Shown here in pieces: positions 1 to 11,975 of a stretch of 37,717 nt of DNA (within the stretch, counting starts at the first letter, position 1; every line of letters starts with the position of its first letter). Made by a program: the position numbers and the translations under genes. Origin of the DNA: an uncultured Pseudomonadota bacterium (GTDB taxonomy: Bacteria; Pseudomonadota; Gammaproteobacteria; Burkholderiales; CAIKXV01). The DNA lies in the NCBI GenBank assembly GCA_903831455.1, contig CAIKXV010000161.1, forward strand, positions 1 through 37,717. The letters are read 5' to 3'. The notes beneath the pieces were generated by a model, which was given only the letters and a program-made list of their open reading frames with translations, was not told where the DNA came from and ran no database searches.

Positions 1-139
1 CGCCCGCCTGCCCGGGGTGCAGCAGCACGTAGCCGGCCAGGGCCGCCTCCGAGGGCATCGGAAGCACCGTGGCGGCGAGGAAGGCGACCGCGGCGACCGA
101 CCACAGTCCGCCTTCGGCCGAGACGATCCAGTCACTCAT
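1..139 (-). CDS. YqaA-family (DedA/VTT-like) membrane protein, N-terminal part only
   Basis: This reading frame begins with ATG at 139 and runs off the left edge of the window, so only the first 46 residues are visible. They form a short hydrophilic start (MSDWIVSAEGGLW) followed by a hydrophobic stretch and the motif LPMPSEAALAGYVL. The combination of MSDW, a first membrane segment and a 'LP.PSEA.LAG' turn is what I recall of the YqaA group of small inner-membrane proteins related to DedA/SNARE-associated proteins; their molecular role is poorly known. No strong Shine-Dalgarno sequence precedes the ATG. The gene points the same way as the selenoprotein gene upstream of it, but a strong inverted repeat at 203-236 lies between them, so they are probably separate transcripts. 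The family call rests on a short fragment. Confidence 0.6.
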   Translation of the reverse strand, partial: MSDWIVSAEGGLWSVAAVAFLAATVLPMPSEAALAGYVLLHPGQAG

Positions 140-250: not shown

Positions 251-847
251 TCAGGACGACCGGCCCCCGGCCGCGCGCGCCTTCATCGACTCGGCGAGCT
301 CTCCGTGCTGCACGTGCAGGGTGAGCAGCCAGCGCTGTCCTCCGGACATGAAGCCGATGTAGTGCCCGAGTTCCACGAGTTCGGGCTCGGTGAAGTGGCG
401 ATGCAGTTCCTCCCACATCGCGTCGTCCGCATGCAGCGGATTGCCGATGATCGCGTCGCAGTAACGCAGGGCGATCTTCTCGCGATCGGTGAACTGGTCC
501 GACCCGAGGTAGGACTGCTCGCCGTCGAGCAGGGACATCCGGTGCCCCGGTACCCGCACGAACTGTGCGGTGTTCATGTTCCCTCAGTAATGGCAGTCGG
601 TACTGAACATCCGACCCCAGGAGGTGGCGATGCGCGCGCGCATGAGCTCGCGCAGGTCCTGCGGCAGCACGCCCTCGTTGCGCATGGTGCGGATCAGTTG
701 CGTGAACGAGCGCATCACCACCTTGTTGTGCGCGCGGATCGCCTGGTTCTCCGGACCGGGGCTGCCGGTGTCGATGGCGTCCTGCAGCCACTGGTTCATT
801 TCGGGGTCGTCCACCTGGTCGGGGTGGAGGTAACTGATGCGCGCCAT
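251..847 (-). CDS. Carboxymuconolactone decarboxylase/AhpD-like selenoprotein with in-frame TGA (Sec88)
   Basis: Starting at ATG 847, with AGGAG nine bases upstream, the frame runs 87 codons to a TGA at 586-584 and then continues in the same frame to the TGA at 253-251. Read through, it is 198 residues, about the usual size of CMD-domain proteins. Neither half is complete alone. The first half ends in the active-site helix and the second carries the rest of the fold (YCDAIIGNP, FTEPELVELGHYIGF). The internal TGA sits at the second cysteine of the CxxC redox motif: C85-H-Y-U88-G-N. CMD/AhpD proteins are thiol-disulfide or peroxidase-type enzymes, and CxxU forms are known in bacteria. A hairpin meeting bacterial SECIS rules follows at 570-554. 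The alternative is a nonsense mutation of TGC/TGT, or separate translation from ATG 577, which has only a poorly spaced GAGGG before it. Substrate unknown. Confidence 0.8.
554..570 (-). promoter_or_regulatory. Candidate bacterial SECIS element within the CMD selenoprotein gene
   Basis: On the mRNA the sequence CCGCAC-AGUUC-GUGCGG forms a perfect 6-bp stem with a 5-nt loop. It begins 13 nt after the UGA, so 19 nt separate UGA and loop. The published bSECIS description (loop 3-14 nt with G among its first two bases, stem 4-16 bp, 16-37 nt from UGA to loop) is met on every count. The E. coli fdhF element has its loop at almost the same distance. Its role would be to bind SelB and direct selenocysteine insertion. 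Confidence 0.7.
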
Positions 848-1015
848 CGCGGTGGCTCCTCTGGGTCTTGTTCCGTTTCTCGGGGACGGTGACCATCGGT
901 CGGTGCACCCGCCCATGACGGGCGTGCGCAGGACCGATCCGGCATGCTACCGTGCCCGGATCGGCAAGACAAAACACCGGCGGCCAGGCGGACCGTCGGG
1001 ACCGGAGGGGTCCGC

Positions 1016-2011
1016 ATGCTCTACAGGGGTGGGTACGGAGTGGGCGCAGCGGCGCTGGCCGCGCTGGTGGCGCTCACCTCCCTGCCGTCGCTCGCGGCCG
1101 AGCGCGCGCTCGAGCAGTGGCCGGTGAAGCCGGTTCGCGTGCTCGTGGGGCAGGAGGCGGGCAGTGCGCTCGACAACGCGGTGCGCACGCTGGCCCCGGC
1201 GCTGGGCGAGGCGCTCGGCCAGCCGCTGGTGCTGGACAACCGGCCCGGGCTGGGCGGCATGATCGCGATGCAGGTCGCGCTCAACGCCACGCCGGATGGC
1301 TACACGCTGGTCAATGCGGGCACGCCGCAGATGATCGCCCCGCACACGTTCCGGCGCATGAGCTACGACTTCCAGCGCGACTTCCTGCCGATCGCGAGGC
1401 TGACCGTCACGCAGAACGTGCTCGTGGTGCCGGCATCGGTGCCGGCGGGAGATGTCCGCGCGCTCGTCGACTGGCTGCGGTCGCGTCCCGGGCACTGGAA
1501 CATGGCCTCGGCCGGCATCGGCTCGGCCAGCCACCTGGCCGGCATGCTGTTCAACACGATGACGGCCGTGCAGGCGGTGCACGTGCCCTACAAGGGCGGT
1601 GCCGCGGCGATCGGCGCGCTGCTCTCGGGCGATGCGCAGTACATGATCACGCCGCTGGCCGCGGCCATCGGGCAGGTGCGGGGCGGCAAGCTTCGCGCGC
1701 TGGCGGTGGCGGGCGAGGCGCGCGCGCCGCAGTTGCCCGACGTGCCCACGTTGCACGAGGCCGGGGTCAAGGGCTATCGCGGCAGCGGCTGGAACGGGCT
1801 GTTCGCGCCAAGGGGCGTTCCATCGGCGGTGGTGACGCGAGCGGCGGCCGCGAGCGTGGCGGCGCTGTCCCGGCCCGCCGTGCGCGAACAGTTGCAGCAG
1901 GCGGGCGTCGAGGCCGGTCCGCTGGTCGGCGCCGAACTCGAGACGTTCATGCGCGAGGAACGTGCGCGCTTCGCCGCCGCCGCCAGGGCAGCCGATCTCA
2001 GGCCCGAGTAG
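1016..2011 (+). CDS. Bug/TctC-family periplasmic solute-binding receptor (1 of 4)
   Basis: The ATG at 1016 follows GGAGGGG, and the 331-residue product opens with a signal peptide (hydrophobic residues 9-26, likely cut after SLAA or nearby). Bug proteins are high-affinity periplasmic receptors of tripartite tricarboxylate transporters; they hold organic acids between two lobes. Typical landmarks are present: WPVKPVRV, DNRPG-x-GG, PDGYTL, VPYKGGAAA and DVPTLHEAGV. The ligand loop, usually APGG.xD, reads QEAGSALDN here (D53 kept), so its ligand may differ from those of the other three receptors. It is transcribed divergently from the selenoprotein gene, with 168 bases between the starts. No TctA or TctB gene is adjacent. 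Family assignment is secure; the ligand is unknown. Confidence 0.9.
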   Translation: MLYRGGYGVGAAALAALVALTSLPSLAAERALEQWPVKPVRVLVGQEAGSALDNAVRTLAPALGEALGQPLVLDNRPGLGGMIAMQVALNATPDGYTLVNAGTPQMIAPHTFRRMSYDFQRDFLPIARLTVTQNVLVVPASVPAGDVRALVDWLRSRPGHWNMASAGIGSASHLAGMLFNTMTAVQAVHVPYKGGAAAIGALLSGDAQYMITPLAAAIGQVRGGKLRALAVAGEARAPQLPDVPTLHEAGVKGYRGSGWNGLFAPRGVPSAVVTRAAAASVAALSRPAVREQLQQAGVEAGPLVGAELETFMREERARFAAAARAADLRPE

Positions 2012-2212
2012 CAGGGCACCCCGTCCTCGACGGTCCAGCCGCCCGCGCAGGGCCGCACCCCCCACCGGCTGCGCATTGCCGATCGGCGCCTCGCGCGGCG
2101 CTGGCCCGATACCCGCGCCGATCGGCTGCCGAGGGCCCGCATGCGTGCGGGCGCGCCGCCGACGCGTTCGGGCCTGGCGCGGGACTGTTCCAGGAGGGCC
2201 CATGGCCCTAGA

Positions 2213-3559
2213 ATGCCCGCGGTGGAAGCCAAGGCCTGCCACGGCGGCGTGACCGCCGACGCCCCCCGACGCGATCTTTGCACCGACTGCGGAGTATCGC
2301 GCACGGCCGAGCCGCGGCGCTGCGGTCGCGCTTGCCAGTTCATCCGGCCCGACTACCCGGCCCTCGAGGCGCAGGTGCACGGACGCGCGCGCGATCCCGC
2401 GCGTGCCGACGAGCTGCACTTCGGTCCGATGCGGCGGATGCTGCGCGCTTCGCTCGCACCCGCACTGCCCGGGGCCCAGTGGAGCGGGATCGCCACCCGC
2501 CTGGGCGAGCGCCTGCTGGAGACGGGCGCGGTGGATGCGGTGCTGGGCATGGGCAGCGATCCGGACGATCGCTGGCGGCCGGTGCCCCGCATGGTCACGC
2601 GCGCGCAGGACATCGCCCAGTTGCGCGGGATGAAGATGGGCCACGCGCCGCTGCTCGCGCTGCTCGAGCCGGCGCGCGATGCGGGGCTGCGTCGCCTGGC
2701 CGTGATCGGCATTCCGTGCCAGGTGTACGCGTTGCGCGCGCTCGAGCGCGAGTTCGGACTGGAGCGGCTGTATGTCATCGGCACGCCCTGCTCGGACAAC
2801 ACGACCACGGACCGTTTCCACGAATTCCTCGACCTCGTGGCCCGCGAGGTCGACTGCGCGCCGGCCGACATCACCTACCTCGAGTTTCGCGCGGACTATC
2901 ATGTGGAACTGCGCTTCGCCGATGGACGGGTACGCGCCATCCCGTTCCTGATGCTGCCCCTGTCGACGCTGCCGGCCGATTTCTTTCCGCTCACCTGCCG
3001 CACCTGCGTCGACTACACCAACGTGCTGGCCGACCTGACGGTCGGCTACATGGGCGGCGAGGGCGAGCAGTGGCTGATCGTGAGGAATGCCCGGGGCGAG
3101 GAACTGGTGGCGCTGCTCGGCGACGAACTGCGCGCGCGCGAGCCGGGCAGTCGTGGCGATCGGCGCGGTCCGGTGCGAGGCTTCCTCGCCAACGTCGAGC
3201 GCGCCGCGGGCGGCTTGCCGCTGCGGCGCATGCCGAGGTGGCTGCGTCCGATCGTGGGCTGGCTGATGCCGAAGGTCGGTCCGCGCGGACTCGAATTCGC
3301 GCGGGCCCGGGTCGAGATGAAGGCGCTGGAGAGCGTGGTCCACCTGCGGCGCGAGCAGCCGCGGCGGTTGCGCACGATGCTGCCGGCGCATCTGTGGTCG
3401 CTGGTCGCGCCCTACGGACTGTCGCCGCAGCCAGGCGAGAGGCCGGCCGCGCAATCCGCCCGCGACGCCGCGGCGCCGATGCCCGGGACGGCCGGCGACG
3501 CGCAGGGCCCCGATGCGCGGCGCAGGCCCGCAGGCCCGAACGGAACCGGATCGCGCTGA
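2213..3559 (+). CDS. BciB/HCAR-like F420 hydrogenase/dehydrogenase beta-subunit family protein
   Basis: The 448-residue product has the N-terminal cysteine cluster C23-T-D-C26 ... C37-G-R-A-C41, then GIPC169QVYALRAL, GTPC193SDN and LTC262RTC265VDYTN-x-LADLTVGYMG. This layout matches the family holding the beta subunit of F420-reducing hydrogenase, plant 7-hydroxymethyl chlorophyll a reductase and bacterial BciB (8-vinyl reductase), which bind FAD and 4Fe-4S clusters and take electrons from ferredoxin. No photosynthesis genes are visible nearby, so a chlorophyll substrate is unlikely to be the whole story. I chose ATG 2213; AGGAGGG lies about 14 bases upstream, a long spacing. The residues after about 410 are low-complexity and probably disordered. 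It ends 70 bases from the convergent GST gene. Substrate unknown. Confidence 0.75.
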   Translation: MPAVEAKACHGGVTADAPRRDLCTDCGVSRTAEPRRCGRACQFIRPDYPALEAQVHGRARDPARADELHFGPMRRMLRASLAPALPGAQWSGIATRLGERLLETGAVDAVLGMGSDPDDRWRPVPRMVTRAQDIAQLRGMKMGHAPLLALLEPARDAGLRRLAVIGIPCQVYALRALEREFGLERLYVIGTPCSDNTTTDRFHEFLDLVAREVDCAPADITYLEFRADYHVELRFADGRVRAIPFLMLPLSTLPADFFPLTCRTCVDYTNVLADLTVGYMGGEGEQWLIVRNARGEELVALLGDELRAREPGSRGDRRGPVRGFLANVERAAGGLPLRRMPRWLRPIVGWLMPKVGPRGLEFARARVEMKALESVVHLRREQPRRLRTMLPAHLWSLVAPYGLSPQPGERPAAQSARDAAAPMPGTAGDAQGPDARRRPAGPNGTGSR

Positions 3560-3629: not shown

Positions 3630-4277
3630 TCAGCCCGCGCGGGCGGCGAACCGCGCCATGACCTCGCGCTCGTAGGCATTGACCGCCTGCACGCTCGGGC
3701 GCTGCTGCATGCGCGCGAAATGCGCGCTGCAGGCGGCGAACTCCGACAGGTCGAAGCCGAATTGCCCGGCGCGCCGGAAGCACCAGAAGAAGTAGGCATC
3801 CACCGCGGTGAAGTGATCGAAGAACCATTCCCGACCGGCCAGCAGGCCCTCGGCGATCGCGAGGTCCGCCCACAGCGCCTGCTTCGCCACCCGCTGCACC
3901 GAGGCATGGGCGGCCGGGTCGTCCGTGTAGTTGCCGGGCCGAGCGTGCGGGGTGAGATGCGGATGGACGGTGGAGGCGAACCAGGCCATCAGCGAGATCG
4001 CCCGGTACTCGGCGAGGCCCTCGGTCGGCAGCAGCCGGGCCTGCGGGAAGCGGCGCGCGATGAACTGCTGGATCGCGACGTTCTCGGTGAGTGGCTCGCC
4101 GTCGATCACCAGCACCGGTACCTTGCCCTTCGGGTTGATCGAAAGATAGTCCGCGGTCTTCTGTTCCTGGGCGCCCGTGTTGACCTCGCGTACGTCGAAG
4201 TCGGCCCCCGCTTCGGTGAGCGTCACGTAGGGCACCAGCGAGCAGGCGTTGGGGGCGTAGAACAGCGTGAGCTTCAC
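3630..4277 (-). CDS. Glutathione S-transferase family protein
   Basis: The product, 215 residues from a GTG at 4277, starts KLTLFYAPNACSLVPYVTL, the beta-alpha start of a thioredoxin-like GST domain with the catalytic Cys/Ser region of beta-class bacterial enzymes (NACS). The glutathione-binding turn INPKGKVPVLV and the following LTENVAIQQFIA are both present, followed by an all-helical C-terminal domain. GTG was preferred over the upstream ATG (4343) because GGAGA lies about seven bases before it and because the extra N-terminal residues would be low-complexity sequence from the repeat region. The reaction is glutathione conjugation or reduction; the substrate cannot be told. It faces the ChaC-like gene divergently, and that enzyme degrades glutathione. 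Shared regulation is possible but not shown. Confidence 0.88.
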   Translation of the reverse strand: MKLTLFYAPNACSLVPYVTLTEAGADFDVREVNTGAQEQKTADYLSINPKGKVPVLVIDGEPLTENVAIQQFIARRFPQARLLPTEGLAEYRAISLMAWFASTVHPHLTPHARPGNYTDDPAAHASVQRVAKQALWADLAIAEGLLAGREWFFDHFTAVDAYFFWCFRRAGQFGFDLSEFAACSAHFARMQQRPSVQAVNAYEREVMARFAARAG

Positions 4278-4621
4278 CGAGGTCTCCGGGAGTGCGCGAG
4301 CGTTCGCGCGGGGCGAGGCCGCAGGGTACGCCGACGCGATCATTCGCGCGAGCGGGCGCGCCTTCGCTTTCGCGCGAACGGGCGCGATTCCCCGCCGCGC
4401 GAACGGGCGCGCTTCCCCTCCGCGCGCCCTGCACGACTGGCCTGGCGAGTGGAAGGGGACCCGCGCGATGGCGGGAGCCGGTGGCGATCACGCGGCCGCC
4501 CGGTTGCGCGCGTGCCGTCCGCCCGCCCGGCTCGCCCTGCGCTTCGTCGTCATGCCCGGCATCGACCCGCCGCTCCGCAGGCCGTTATCCTGACGCGGGA
4601 TCATCCTTGACTGGCCACCCC
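4278..4621. other. Divergent intergenic region between GST and ChaC-like genes, with repeats
   Basis: No gene was found in these 344 bases. They hold three near-identical copies of a 16-mer (listed separately at 4345-4411) and must contain the promoters of both flanking genes. TATCCT at 4586-4591 is a possible -10 element for the ChaC-like gene, without a recognisable -35. Confidence 0.5.
4345..4411. repeat. Three direct copies of a 16-bp GC-rich repeat
   Basis: CGCGCGAGCGGGCGCG (4345-4360) is followed by CGCGCGAACGGGCGCG at 4371-4386 and again at 4396-4411, with starts 26 and 25 bases apart. The last two copies are identical and the first differs at one base. The spacing of about two and a half helical turns would suit a tandem protein-binding site, but in DNA this GC-rich chance repetition cannot be excluded. 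Confidence 0.6.
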
Positions 4622-6566: not shown

Positions 6567-7334
6567 ATGACGAACCAGGCGGATGCCACGCGACGCGTGG
6601 CCCTCGTGACCGGGGCGGGCAGCGGCATCGGCCGCGCCTCCTCGCTTGCCCTGCTGCGCGATGGCTGGCACGTGGCGCTGGCCGGACGTCGGGCCGAGGC
6701 GCTGGAAGAGGTGGCGCGTGCGTCGGGCGCCGGCGATCGCGCGCTCGCCGTGCCCACCGACATCACGTTCCCGGAGTCGGTGGCCGCGCTGTTCGACACG
6801 GTGCGCGAGGCTTGGGGGCGGCTCGACCTGCTGTTCAACAACGCCGGGCTCAACGCCCCCGGCGTGCCGCTGGAGGATCTCCCGGTCGATCGCTGGATGG
6901 CCGTGATCAACACCAACCTCACCGGTGCCTTCCTCTGCACCCAGCAGGCCTTCCGGCTGATGAAGGCGCAGTCGCCCCGCGGGGGACGGATCATCAACAA
7001 CGGGTCGATCTCGGCGCACGTGCCGCGTCCCGACTCGGCGCCCTATACGGCCAGCAAGCACGCGATCACCGGACTCACGAAGACCACCGCGCTCGACGGG
7101 CGCAAGTACGACATCGCCTGCTGCCAGATCGACGTGGGCAACGCGATGACCGAACTCGCCGCGCGGATGTCGCGCGGCGTCAAGCAGGCCGATGGCGAGA
7201 TCCGGGTCGAGCCGATGATCGACGTGGAGGACGTCGGACGCACGGTGCTGCACATGGCCAACCAGCCGCCCGGCGTGAACCTGTTCAGCGTGACGATCAT
7301 GGCCACGAAGATGCCTTTCGTCGGTCGCGGCTAG
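6567..7334 (+). CDS. Short-chain dehydrogenase/reductase (classical SDR)
   Basis: The product is 255 residues, starting at ATG 6567 after GGGGAG. It has the complete classical SDR set: the nucleotide-binding TGAGSGIG (15-22), NNAG (91-94), catalytic Ser147 in NNGSIS, and Y160-TAS-K164. It should be a cytoplasmic NAD(P)(H)-dependent oxidoreductase acting on an alcohol or ketone; which one cannot be read from the sequence. R41 directly after the second beta strand (LAGRR) favours NADP(H). It lies between two Bug receptor genes on the same strand, 194 bases after the first and 389 before the second, so it may belong to the catabolism of a captured substrate, but this is only proximity. Confidence 0.9.
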
Positions 7335-7430
7335 GCGCGGCGACCGCGGAGCAACCCTGGCGGGGCGCGGTGCGGGGAGGCAGGGCCCGCGGCGCTCGGA
7401 CCGCCCGAGCCGAGCGGGGTGCCGGGCCGT

Positions 7431-7462
7431 CGGCGCGCATCCCGAGGCGGTGATGCGCGCCG
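7431..7462 (+). terminator. 11-bp perfect inverted repeat, possible terminator of the SDR gene
   Basis: CGGCGCGCATC (7431-7441) pairs perfectly with GATGCGCGCCG (7452-7462) around a 10-nt loop. It lies about 100 bases after the SDR stop codon. There is no T-tract, so it could equally be a protein-binding palindrome. Confidence 0.4.
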
Positions 7463-7664
7463 GCAGCGTCACCGGACCGGGCTGTCCGGGCGCGTGTGCG
7501 AAGGTCCGAATGCTGACGGGCATCGGAGGGGTGACGCCCGCTTCCGGGTCGCGGATCCGGGTGCGAAGGACCGCCGGCCGACCGGATCCTGTGTCGGGCC
7601 CACGGGTACCCGCGCGGGGACATCAGCGCGCCGGTCCCCTATCGGTGATCGCGCCCGCCCGGCG

Positions 7665-7670
7665 TATCAT
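7665..7670 (+). promoter_or_regulatory. Possible -10 element of the third Bug gene
   Basis: TATCAT (five of six matches to TATAAT) stands out in very GC-rich sequence 53 bases before the ATG. No convincing -35 is found 17 bases upstream. Confidence 0.25.
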
Positions 7671-7723
7671 CCGCCCATTACGCGCCGGCTGTGCACAGGC
7701 GCGATATCCCCAGGAGACAGGAC

Positions 7724-9024: not shown

Positions 9025-10284
9025 TCAGTTCAACCCGAGGAACGCGAAGTCGACCTCGGGGCGACGGCCGGCGACGAGGTCGGCCAGCGCGCGTCCCGAG
9101 CCGCAGGCATGGGTCCAGCCCAGCGTGCCATGCCCGGTATTCAGGTACAGGTTGCGCAGCGCCGAGCGGCCGATCAGCGGCACGTTGGACGGCGTGGCCG
9201 GGCGCAGGCCTGCCCAGAACCGCGCAGCCTCGCGGTCTCCGGCGCGGGGGAAGAGCTCGAACAGCCGCTCGAGGATCATCCGGCAGCGCCGTTCGTTGAG
9301 GCCGGTGTCGTAGCCGGCCAGTTCGGCCGTGCCCGCGCAGCGCAAGCGGTGCCCCAGCCGCGAGATCACGATCTTGTACTCGTCGTCGGTCAGGCTGACC
9401 GTCGGGGCGACATCGCCCTCGCGCACCGGCAGCGTCACCGAGTAGCCCTTGGCCGGATAGACCGGGATGCGCAGGCCGATGCGGTCGAGCACGGGCGCGC
9501 TGTAGCTGCCCAGGGCGACCACGTAGGCGTCGGCGCGAAGCGGGTGGGGGCGCTGGTCGGGGTCGACGAGCTCGACCCCCGCGAGCCGGTCGCCCTCGCG
9601 CAGCAGGGCGTGGATCCGGTGCCCGAGCAGGAAGCGCACGCCGCGGGCTTCGGCGAGTGCGGCCAGCTCGCGCGTGAAGCGGTGCGCATCCCCCGACTCG
9701 TCGCTGGACGTGTAACTGCCGCCGACGATCCGCGACCGGGCTTCGGCGAGCGCGGGTTCCACGCGGACGCACGCATCGGCGTCGATCAGGTCGAGATCGC
9801 AGCCGTGCTCGCGCATCACGCGCGCGGGGCCCTCGGCGGCCGCGAACTCGCGCGCATCGGTGTACACGTGCAGGATGCCCTTCTGCAGATGATCGTAGGC
9901 GAGCCCGGTCTGGGCGCGCAGCGACTGCAGCGTCTGCCGGCTGTAGAGGCCCAGGCGCACCAGCTGGCCGATGTTGCGACGGGTGCGCGAGGGCAGGCAC
10001 TCGCGCAGGAAGCCTGCGCACCAGCGCCACAGCGCGGGATCTCGACGCACGCGCAACAGCAGCGGCGCTTCCTCGCGCCCCAGCCAGGACAGCACCTTGA
10101 GCGGTGCGCTCGGGTGGGCCCAGGGCTCGGCATGGCTCACGGAGATCTGGCCGCCGTTGGCGAAGCTCGTCTCGTTGCCGGGTACCGGCTGGCGGTCGAC
10201 CACGGTGACCTCATGGCCGTCGGCGCGCAGGAACCACGCGGCGGCCGTGCCGACCACGCCGGCGCCCAGCACCAGGATATGCAT
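9025..10284 (-). CDS. dadA: D-amino acid dehydrogenase, small-subunit (DadA) family flavoprotein
   Basis: The 419-residue protein begins MHILVLGAGVVGTAAAWFL, a dinucleotide-binding GxGxxG (7-12) for FAD. Further DadA landmarks follow: RQPVPGNETSFANGGQISV, the PYPAKGYS-type segment (VYPAKGYSVTLP), and the C-terminal GLRPATPSNVPLIG with LNTGHGTLGWTHACGSG. DadA oxidises D-amino acids, classically D-alanine, to 2-oxo acids and ammonia at the inner face of the membrane, passing electrons to the quinone pool. The usual partner dadX (alanine racemase) is not here. It follows the sulfatase gene by 64 bases on the same strand and may share its transcript. The substrate could be another D-amino acid; several DadA paralogues are common in Burkholderiales. 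Confidence 0.88.
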   Translation of the reverse strand: MHILVLGAGVVGTAAAWFLRADGHEVTVVDRQPVPGNETSFANGGQISVSHAEPWAHPSAPLKVLSWLGREEAPLLLRVRRDPALWRWCAGFLRECLPSRTRRNIGQLVRLGLYSRQTLQSLRAQTGLAYDHLQKGILHVYTDAREFAAAEGPARVMREHGCDLDLIDADACVRVEPALAEARSRIVGGSYTSSDESGDAHRFTRELAALAEARGVRFLLGHRIHALLREGDRLAGVELVDPDQRPHPLRADAYVVALGSYSAPVLDRIGLRIPVYPAKGYSVTLPVREGDVAPTVSLTDDEYKIVISRLGHRLRCAGTAELAGYDTGLNERRCRMILERLFELFPRAGDREAARFWAGLRPATPSNVPLIGRSALRNLYLNTGHGTLGWTHACGSGRALADLVAGRRPEVDFAFLGLN

Positions 10285-10348
10285 GCGAACTCCCGTCGAG
10301 AGGGGGCGTGACCGGCGCCCGCCGTGGCGCGCCCCGCCCGCGGACGGG

Positions 10349-11884
10349 TCAGGCCATCCCGATCGGCTCGGGCAGCGGGTCGCGAATCTCCCCGGGGCGT
10401 GCCCGCATCATCTGCTCGAGTTCGTCGCGCAGGCCGCGGTAGCCCGGGTCGTCGAACCGATTGTGCATCTCGCCCGGGTCGTTGCGCAGATCGTAGAGTT
10501 CGCCCGCCCCCGAGCCGAGTTCGAACGTGCACTTGGCATCCCGCGTGCGCACCGTGCGCAGCGCCAGCGCGACCCCGCAGCGCGAGGCGTGGACGTGCCA
10601 CTCGCTGTAGGCGACCGGCCGCGATTGCGGCTCGCCTGCGAGCAGCGGCAGCAGGCTGCGCGACTGGGCTCCTTCCGCAAGCTTCGCGCCGCCGGCCTCG
10701 CAGAAGGTGGCGGCGAGGTCCAGGGTGGAGACCGGGTCGCGCACGACCTCGCCCGCCCGCACGCCCGGACCGCGCGCGATGAGGCCGATGCGCAGCAGGT
10801 CCTCGTAGGGAATCGGGTGCTTGAGGTAGAGCCCGTGGTTGCCGAGCAGATCGCCGTGGTCGGTGCTGTAGACGACCAGCGTGTTGTCGGCCAGTCCCAT
10901 CGCGTCCAGCGACTCGAGCATGCGCCCCACGCTGTGGTCCACGAGCGAGATCATCGCGTAGTAGTTCGCGGCCATCTCGGCCAGTTGCGCGTCGGTCTGG
11001 TCCGGGCAGCGCGACCCCTGGGTGCGGAAGCGCAGCATCACCGGATCGCTGAGGTCCGGCTGGCCCTCCAGCACCGCGCGGTGCCACCAGGGGCGTCGGT
11101 CGAGGTCCTTCACGCGGTGCTCCGGGAGCCGCAGCGCGCGCGGGTCGTACAGGCGCGACCACGGCTCGGGTGCGTCGAACGGATGGTGGGGGTCGCCGAA
11201 GGAGGCCCACACGCAGAACGGCTTCGAGCGGTCGCGCTGCGCCAGCCACTCGATGGTGCGGTCCGCCACCCAGGTCGAGCCGTGCCAGGCGACCGGCAGC
11301 GCCGAGTTCCAGGTCTGGGCGGCGCCATTGCCCGGCCGGGTTTCCGACGCCCAAAGCTCGCGCGCCTCGCCCGCCCGCCCGCGGCTGTCGAACCAGCGCT
11401 CGTAGTGGCCCACGATCGGCCGCTGCGGCGGTCGGTCCCGGTGCATGTGGCCGAGCACGGTGAGCTGGGCGTGCCGGAAGCCCATGTACGGCCCCTGCCA
11501 GCCGCGCTCGTAGAGCTCGCCGTTGAAGCGATCCTCCGGCGTGCCGGTGGGTGCGAAGGTGGCCTTGGTCGCGAAGTGCGCCTTGCCGACGAACGCGGTC
11601 GCGTAGCCGGCGCGGCCGAGCGCGCCCGCGAAGCCGCCGTCGCCGATGGCCGGATCGAGATCGACCCCGTTGTCCCACACGCCATGGGTGAGGGGCAGCA
11701 TGCCGGTGAGGATCGAGGCCCTCGAAGGCTGGCAGACCAGGTTCGGCGTGATCGCCGCGCCGAAGCGGGTGCCGCTGGCCGCGAGGCGATCGAGGTGGGG
11801 CGTGAGCACCTGCGGGTTTTCGAACCCGTAGGCGTCGCCGCGCTGCTGGTCGGAGGTGATGAACAGGATGTTGGGTCGCGTCAT
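10349..11884 (-). CDS. Sulfatase family hydrolase (formylglycine-type)
   Basis: The product is 511 residues, starting MTRPNILFITSDQQRGD, whose aspartate pair supplies calcium ligands in the family. C51-Q-P-S-R fits the C-x-P-S-R motif, in which the cysteine is converted to formylglycine. Other family pieces are HGVWDNG, YSTDHGD (metal site) and SEWHV. Substrates of relatives include sulfate esters, phosphonates and choline sulfate; this one's substrate cannot be named. No signal peptide is present, so it is probably cytoplasmic. No formylglycine-generating enzyme gene or AtsB-type anaerobic maturase lies in the window. It follows the fourth Bug receptor gene by 91 bases on the same strand, so the receptor may bring in its substrate or product. 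Confidence 0.9.
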   Translation of the reverse strand: MTRPNILFITSDQQRGDAYGFENPQVLTPHLDRLAASGTRFGAAITPNLVCQPSRASILTGMLPLTHGVWDNGVDLDPAIGDGGFAGALGRAGYATAFVGKAHFATKATFAPTGTPEDRFNGELYERGWQGPYMGFRHAQLTVLGHMHRDRPPQRPIVGHYERWFDSRGRAGEARELWASETRPGNGAAQTWNSALPVAWHGSTWVADRTIEWLAQRDRSKPFCVWASFGDPHHPFDAPEPWSRLYDPRALRLPEHRVKDLDRRPWWHRAVLEGQPDLSDPVMLRFRTQGSRCPDQTDAQLAEMAANYYAMISLVDHSVGRMLESLDAMGLADNTLVVYSTDHGDLLGNHGLYLKHPIPYEDLLRIGLIARGPGVRAGEVVRDPVSTLDLAATFCEAGGAKLAEGAQSRSLLPLLAGEPQSRPVAYSEWHVHASRCGVALALRTVRTRDAKCTFELGSGAGELYDLRNDPGEMHNRFDDPGYRGLRDELEQMMRARPGEIRDPLPEPIGMA

Positions 11885-11975
11885 GGTGAGGCCTGGAGTC
11901 CGGGCGCGCGAGGGGATCGGGCGCGGGGTGGAGGATCGGGAGATCGGTGCGTCGGGCGGGCGCTGCGGCAGCGGA

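Follow-up and report, generated by a model that had tools for sequence, protein, structure and literature searches.

Two adjacent reading frames of an uncultured betaproteobacterium, at positions 584-847 and 251-577 on the minus strand of the window (the whole stretch of 37,717 nucleotides that was analysed), keep the same register and are parted by a single TGA at 584-586. The question raised by this locus is whether they are the halves of a broken gene, two separate coding units or one gene whose internal TGA is read as selenocysteine (Sec). Joined, as the first-pass annotation had proposed and as is seen directly in the sequence, they give one frame of 198 codons (251-847, minus strand), which starts at the ATG at 845-847, has the TGA at codon 88 as its sole break and ends at an ordinary TGA stop at 251-253. 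The read-through product, MARISYLHPDQ...TDCHYUGNMNTAQ..., has 198 residues, and the ORF caller did split the gene into two ORFs, as had been foreseen for automatic annotation. On the basis of the conserved TGA, a covarying hairpin, the selenium machinery of the genome and an AhpD-like fold, the gene is predicted to encode a selenoprotein of the AhpD/CMD superfamily. A probability of about 0.93 is given to the reading in which it is a full-length AhpD-like (CMD-superfamily) oxidoreductase with Sec as its second active-site cysteine, the UGA at 584-586 being read by means of SelB, tRNA-Sec and a bacterial SECIS (bSECIS) hairpin.

Reading frame and conservation of the TGA codon

The listed ORF ending at 584 begins at an ATG at 916, upstream of the start typical of the family, the ATG at 847; a Shine-Dalgarno-like AGGAG can be read 8 nt 5' of the latter (856-860, minus strand). 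Just 3' of the stop codon, at 203-236, a perfect 12-bp inverted repeat with a 10-nt spacer and without a T run was noted by eye. The next gene downstream (1-139, minus strand) is truncated by the contig start, and its first residues resemble those of a DedA/YqaA-type membrane protein. A divergent gene for a TctC receptor of the tripartite tricarboxylate transporter type is found at 944-2011 (plus strand; Pfam PF03401, E 2.8e-64), with the ATG at 1016 as a likelier start than the listed one, and FrhB/FdhB-like F420 hydrogenase/dehydrogenase beta-subunit domains (PF04422, PF04432) are encoded in this betaproteobacterium at 2141-3559 (plus strand).

The same TGA is present in all 11 orthologues, namely the window gene and ten others that are 75-90% identical to it, and none of the ten has a Cys codon there, which contradicts the scenario of a Cys in all close relatives. 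A wider set was formed by the best 80 of 501 relatives from public genomes, ranked by E-value, plus the window gene, and is not a population sample; in these 81 genes codon 88 is TGA in 50, TGC in 30 and TGT in one, with no other codon, so that the proposed check of homologues at this position returned 31 Cys and 50 TGA. The recurrence of the TGA in the ten orthologues and in 50 genes of this set rules out chance or assembly error. Furthermore, a search of 150 genomes, comprising that of the window and those of relatives, gave a match in 44; several of the 80 public loci come from genomes that are also in this set. Within the genus, it occurs with TGA in seven of 11 genomes (G000-G010, the window's included), the other six copies being 88-90% identical, and an orthologue at about 90% identity was not found in the remaining four (G003, G004, G006 and G010). 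A second gene, about 52-57% identical and likewise with TGA, occurs in seven genomes of the genus and in two further members of the order. Among viral contigs, 68 stretches had the pattern and none was a relative by tblastn, while plasmids gave a single match, from Massilia, with 32.6% identity over 67% of the query.

Coding quality had been described as unbroken past the TGA, and the substitution pattern agrees, pointing to purifying selection on the distal part: dN/dS between the window gene and its ten orthologues is 0.06-0.18 after the TGA (nine pairs, one more being saturated) and 0.13-0.32 before it, and is lower after than before in eight of the nine measurable pairs. Over all pairs of the 11 genes, nonsynonymous and synonymous differences stand in a similar relation in both parts (1433:1954 after the TGA, 1291:1662 before it). 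One orthologue (L065/L016) has an extra TAG near its C-terminus. A quick maximum-likelihood tree with 90 rows, rooted for drawing only, comprises the 81 genes (best 80 of 501 plus the window) and nine from relatives; it places the window gene in a clade of ten, all with TGA (SH-aLRT 100). Sec and Cys at codon 88 are related by two changes on this tree, and a clade of eight Cys genes lies nested within the TGA genes.

Further arrangements were observed at individual loci. Locus L071 contains the window gene twice (4001-4594 and about 7078-7690), each copy with TGA in CHYU. Elsewhere in the order, a Sec copy with CSYUGN stands in tandem with a paralogue in which Asp and Phe replace both active-site residues (L054 at 2290-3422, L030, L031 and L032/L057); the two products perhaps form a hetero-oligomer. 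Genes from public bins titled 'Bordetella parapertussis' (L068, L070, L071, L085, L087 and L100) group with those of betaproteobacterial bins, and these titles are probably wrong labels.

The downstream hairpin and the selenium machinery

A 6-bp hairpin begins 13 nt past the TGA (554-570, minus strand), with a stem formed by 565-570 and 554-559 and the loop AGUUC at 560-564; with the U of UGA taken as position 1, the pairing is between 17-22 and 28-33. Its loop of 5 nt, stem of 6 bp, loop start A-G and spacing of 19 nt from UGA to loop lie within the bSECIS model as set out in the consulted part of PMC13188914 (loop of 3-9 nt, stem of 4-16 bp, G in the first two loop positions and loop 16-37 nt after UGA). 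The complete stem of six pairs is present in 36 of 40 distinct TGA sequences and absent from all 31 Cys sequences (best 80 of 501 plus the window). In the remaining four, two sequences have five pairs, L078/L094 has two and L084 has three, the stem of the last two being apparently shorter and displaced in register. Pairing extends to 96.3% of cells in the TGA set versus 83.8% in shuffles, and 32 cells are changed on both sides in a compensatory manner versus 7.5 in shuffles, a value reached by none of 500 shuffles; two of the five covariation measures (pairs with a double change and further pair types) are not above shuffles. The Cys control set stays at shuffle level (35.5% of cells versus 33.3%).

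The evidence for the hairpin is comparative, since that of the window is by itself unremarkable: its single-sequence fold has a z of -0.91 against shuffles, and 4.3% of synonymous recodings of the window pair as fully. A search of window positions 400-900 against Rfam gave no match up to E 10. A covariance-model search placed a paralogue on contig C152 first (E 8e-12), the window second (8e-9) and the next hit at 0.05; these hits are circular and no evidence, because the window is part of the model and the paralogue's 36 bases are identical to model row L087.

Regarding the machinery, the window's genome (4.10 Mb in 306 contigs, 97.8% complete, 4.5% contamination) contains selA, selB, selC and selD, the four genes whose search had been recommended. 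The selA gene is on contig C223, selB is present twice (L145 on C223; L146 on C282, with a locus at 9886-11946; 44% identical), and selD has its own TGA in GGG-U-GC. The sole tRNA-Sec (selC) found in the bin lies on C282, beside the second SelB and an fdh cluster, and none was found behind the selA-selB pair of this genome, unlike in the sister genomes G005 and G007. The origin of C282 is doubtful: its G+C is 0.694 versus 0.72, and its tetranucleotide correlation with the window, similar to that of C223, is a weak check because sister genomes correlate nearly as well.

Across the 150 genomes, a selA match over the cut-off is found in 50, among them every one of the 14 whose TGA-bearing match is strong (E 1.5e-14 or better), an association with a hypergeometric probability of 5e-8 that ignores kinship, eight of the 14 being of one genus. 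Genome G004 has another CMD gene with TGA in CxxU (L172), but its selA match, of only 22 bits, is below the cut-off; this bin is 84% complete, in 530 contigs.

These results bear on three other explanations of the in-frame TGA. A pseudogene or sequencing error, in which a nonsense mutation split a gene that once contained Cys, would suit a frame broken by a single TGA in a metagenome bin of many contigs, but is very improbable, given that all 11 orthologues, from separate assemblies, carry the same TGA, that dN/dS after it remains low and that the hairpin covaries. Slightly more credit, though still very little, can be given to two polypeptides, translation stopping at the UGA and restarting at the AUG at 577, with the halves then assembling: a GAGG overlaps the UGA, the AUG begins 9 nt after the U of UGA and its Met is kept in 11 of 11 orthologues. 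The split would, however, separate the two active-site residues, and outside the orthologue clade the AUG is missing from all 32 distinct TGA sequences, CAG or CAA standing there instead (best 80 of 501 plus the window). Moreover, a Met at +3 is usual in the CxxCxxMH motif of AhpD proteins, which counts against a restart at this codon. Finally, a general reassignment of TGA to a sense codon in the organism would account for an in-frame TGA within a conserved gene, yet it is the least credible of the three, as the gene's own stop is TGA and the internal TGAs encountered occupy redox Cys/Sec positions in CMD, SelD and FdhA proteins.

Under the selenoprotein reading, which is preferred, the ribosome would decode the UGA as Sec with SelB and tRNA-Sec, and insertion would be directed by the putative bSECIS hairpin 13 nt downstream.

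Modelled fold, active site and possible activity

The AlphaFold2 model of the protein (pLDDT 86, pTM 0.81) has an all-helical AhpD-like fold, its confidence being lowest (54-66) at residues 81-100, around the motif. The best Foldseek matches are the debrominase Bmp8, Atu0492 and 2prr (E 3.5e-4 to 9.5e-4, probability 1.00). With VIA-align, AhpD-like structures, Bmp8 included, reach Z 13.6-15.8 over 129-171 residues, values to be read with the caveat that helical models can attain Z of about 13-14 through common arrangement alone; the AhpD of M. tuberculosis gives Z 7.7-7.9.

The CxxU redox motif, C85-H-Y-U88 (584-595, minus strand), is supported by the sequence and by alignments. The TGA had been placed at the resolving cysteine of this motif (C85-H-Y-U88-G-N), a role that residue 88 may have: in alignments it corresponds to the second Cys in the CxxC of AhpD, that is, to Cys133 of M. 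tuberculosis AhpD and Cys51 of PA0269, as numbered in the consulted part of PMC3141380. The relay Glu (E67) is present, as are C85, Y87 and U88; in an alignment of 23 rows (A1), Glu67 is kept in 23, Cys85 in 20 and Tyr or Phe at 87 in 23. The window clade differs in having six extra residues between Glu67 and Cys85; at position +4 from the second Cys, where AhpD has its relay His, it has Asn (Asn92). Within the best 80 of 501 relatives plus the window, this +4 residue is N in 10, G in 33 and R in 7 of the 50 TGA rows, and G in 8 and R in 23 of the 31 Cys rows. This His is described as invariant in the AhpD-like structures compared in PMC3141380, as far as the consulted part goes.

The likeliest predicted activity is that of a selenol/thiol peroxidase or a disulfide reductase. 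Judging from fold and motif, the Cys85/Sec88 selenol-thiol pair would most likely cycle to a selenenylsulfide and reduce a peroxide or the disulfide or sulfenate of a partner. Sec may compensate for the missing proton-relay His, which is also absent from the Cys homologues.

The genomic neighbourhood was described with a simple ORF caller and a profile of four TctC proteins, leaving out the single TGT locus. TctC is the divergent upstream neighbour in seven of 10 orthologue loci (window included) and, at TGA loci in general, occupies the divergent upstream position in 19 of 37, the same-direction upstream position in 0 of 11 and the downstream position in 15 of 43. This amounts to 34 of 91 adjacent genes, versus 25 of 226 more distant genes. 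Given the kinship of the loci and the variation in their neighbours, this enrichment is not an independent one. No TctC was found among 195 genes of TGC loci, a contrast that may reflect lineage, since most Cys loci belong to other phyla. As the family in Burkholderiales tends to adjoin these solute-uptake genes, its substrate may conceivably derive from the catabolism of an imported compound.

A related alternative accepts the selenoprotein and not the peroxidase: a substrate-specific catabolic reductase, for instance a Bmp8-like reductive dehalogenase tied to TctC receptors. It is a real, if clearly minor, possibility. Bmp8 is the top Foldseek match and the fourth of 15 profile hits, the enrichment of TctC beside TGA loci suits such a role, and the relay His has been lost; against this, peroxidase-related structures reach a higher Z (15.0-15.8 versus 13.9), and the TctC enrichment carries the dependence noted above.

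Place among known selenoproteins

Sec variants of AhpD-like proteins were rightly called established by the first-pass annotation: in the consulted part of the 2005 Sargasso Sea study, CxxU selenoproteins of the AhpD-like (27 sequences) and CMD-domain (4) types are already in print (PMC1088965), and that of the GOS survey names AhpD-like 1 and 2 (PMC2398784). With these and those of PMC13188914, in the parts consulted, the window protein shares the superfamily, a CxxU with Sec in second place and a downstream bSECIS. Unlike them, and compared through models rather than sequences, it passes none of PF02627, TIGR01926, NF041047 and NF041238. Pfam gave no CMD match (PF02627), only sub-threshold Globin and DUF7563. 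Of 10 other CMD proteins run against this model, eight exceed its cut-off, one from the sister group included (L097, 24.1 versus 23). For the three NCBIfam models, one scores 17.1 of 81.8 and two are absent up to E 1. The best NCBIfam match, over residues 1-173, is to the YciW-related (seleno)protein NF053654, and at 44.2 bits versus a cut-off of 310 it leaves the protein far outside that family.

Among known structures, PA0269, 2prr, 2oyo and 6k40 share with the window protein the fold (Z 14.3-15.8), the relay Glu, the Tyr, the first Cys and the position of the second, and differ from it in the Sec, Asn92 and the insertion between Glu67 and Cys85. The likeness to Bmp8 (6ohi, 6ohj) is one of fold only, with about 17% identity and Sec in the window protein. 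The kind of protein is therefore known, and the branch to which that of the window belongs lies outside the current Pfam and NCBIfam models tested; in the open-licence PMC papers searched (main texts), the subgroup is not named. Selenoproteins of this branch are easily missed, because the ORF caller splits their genes and the family models fail to recognise them.

In addition, other CMD-superfamily genes show TGA in CxxU in 15 of 22 loci examined (L172, L174, L176-L182, L184-L186, L034, L059 and L060), with motifs such as CHYUMAHN, CHYUTEHN and CEFUVDIN and, by eye, a hairpin behind the TGA in most of them; none was found in L037, L042, L061, L173, L175, L183 and L187.

According to the consulted part of a 2006 survey, FdhA was the only selenoprotein found in betaproteobacteria (PMC1794560). 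A bolder reading, somewhat less probable even than the catabolic reductase, would make the window clade a separate selenoenzyme subfamily with an inserted active-site helix turn and Asn for the relay His, acting on a specific small TctC-imported substrate, for example by reductive dehalogenation, within a betaproteobacterial use of selenium extending far beyond FdhA. Contrary to the FdhA-only picture, as given in that part of the survey, at least five selenoprotein genes are predicted in this single betaproteobacterial bin (G000): those of SelD, FdhA, two MARxxY CMD proteins and a CHYU-MAHN AhpD-like protein, located on C142 (L151), C282 (L146), C152 (L044), C44 (L059) and in the window, with that of FdhA on the doubtful contig C282. 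Moreover, the family offers aligned Sec and Cys forms, in which the contribution of Sec can be studied where AhpD's relay His is missing.
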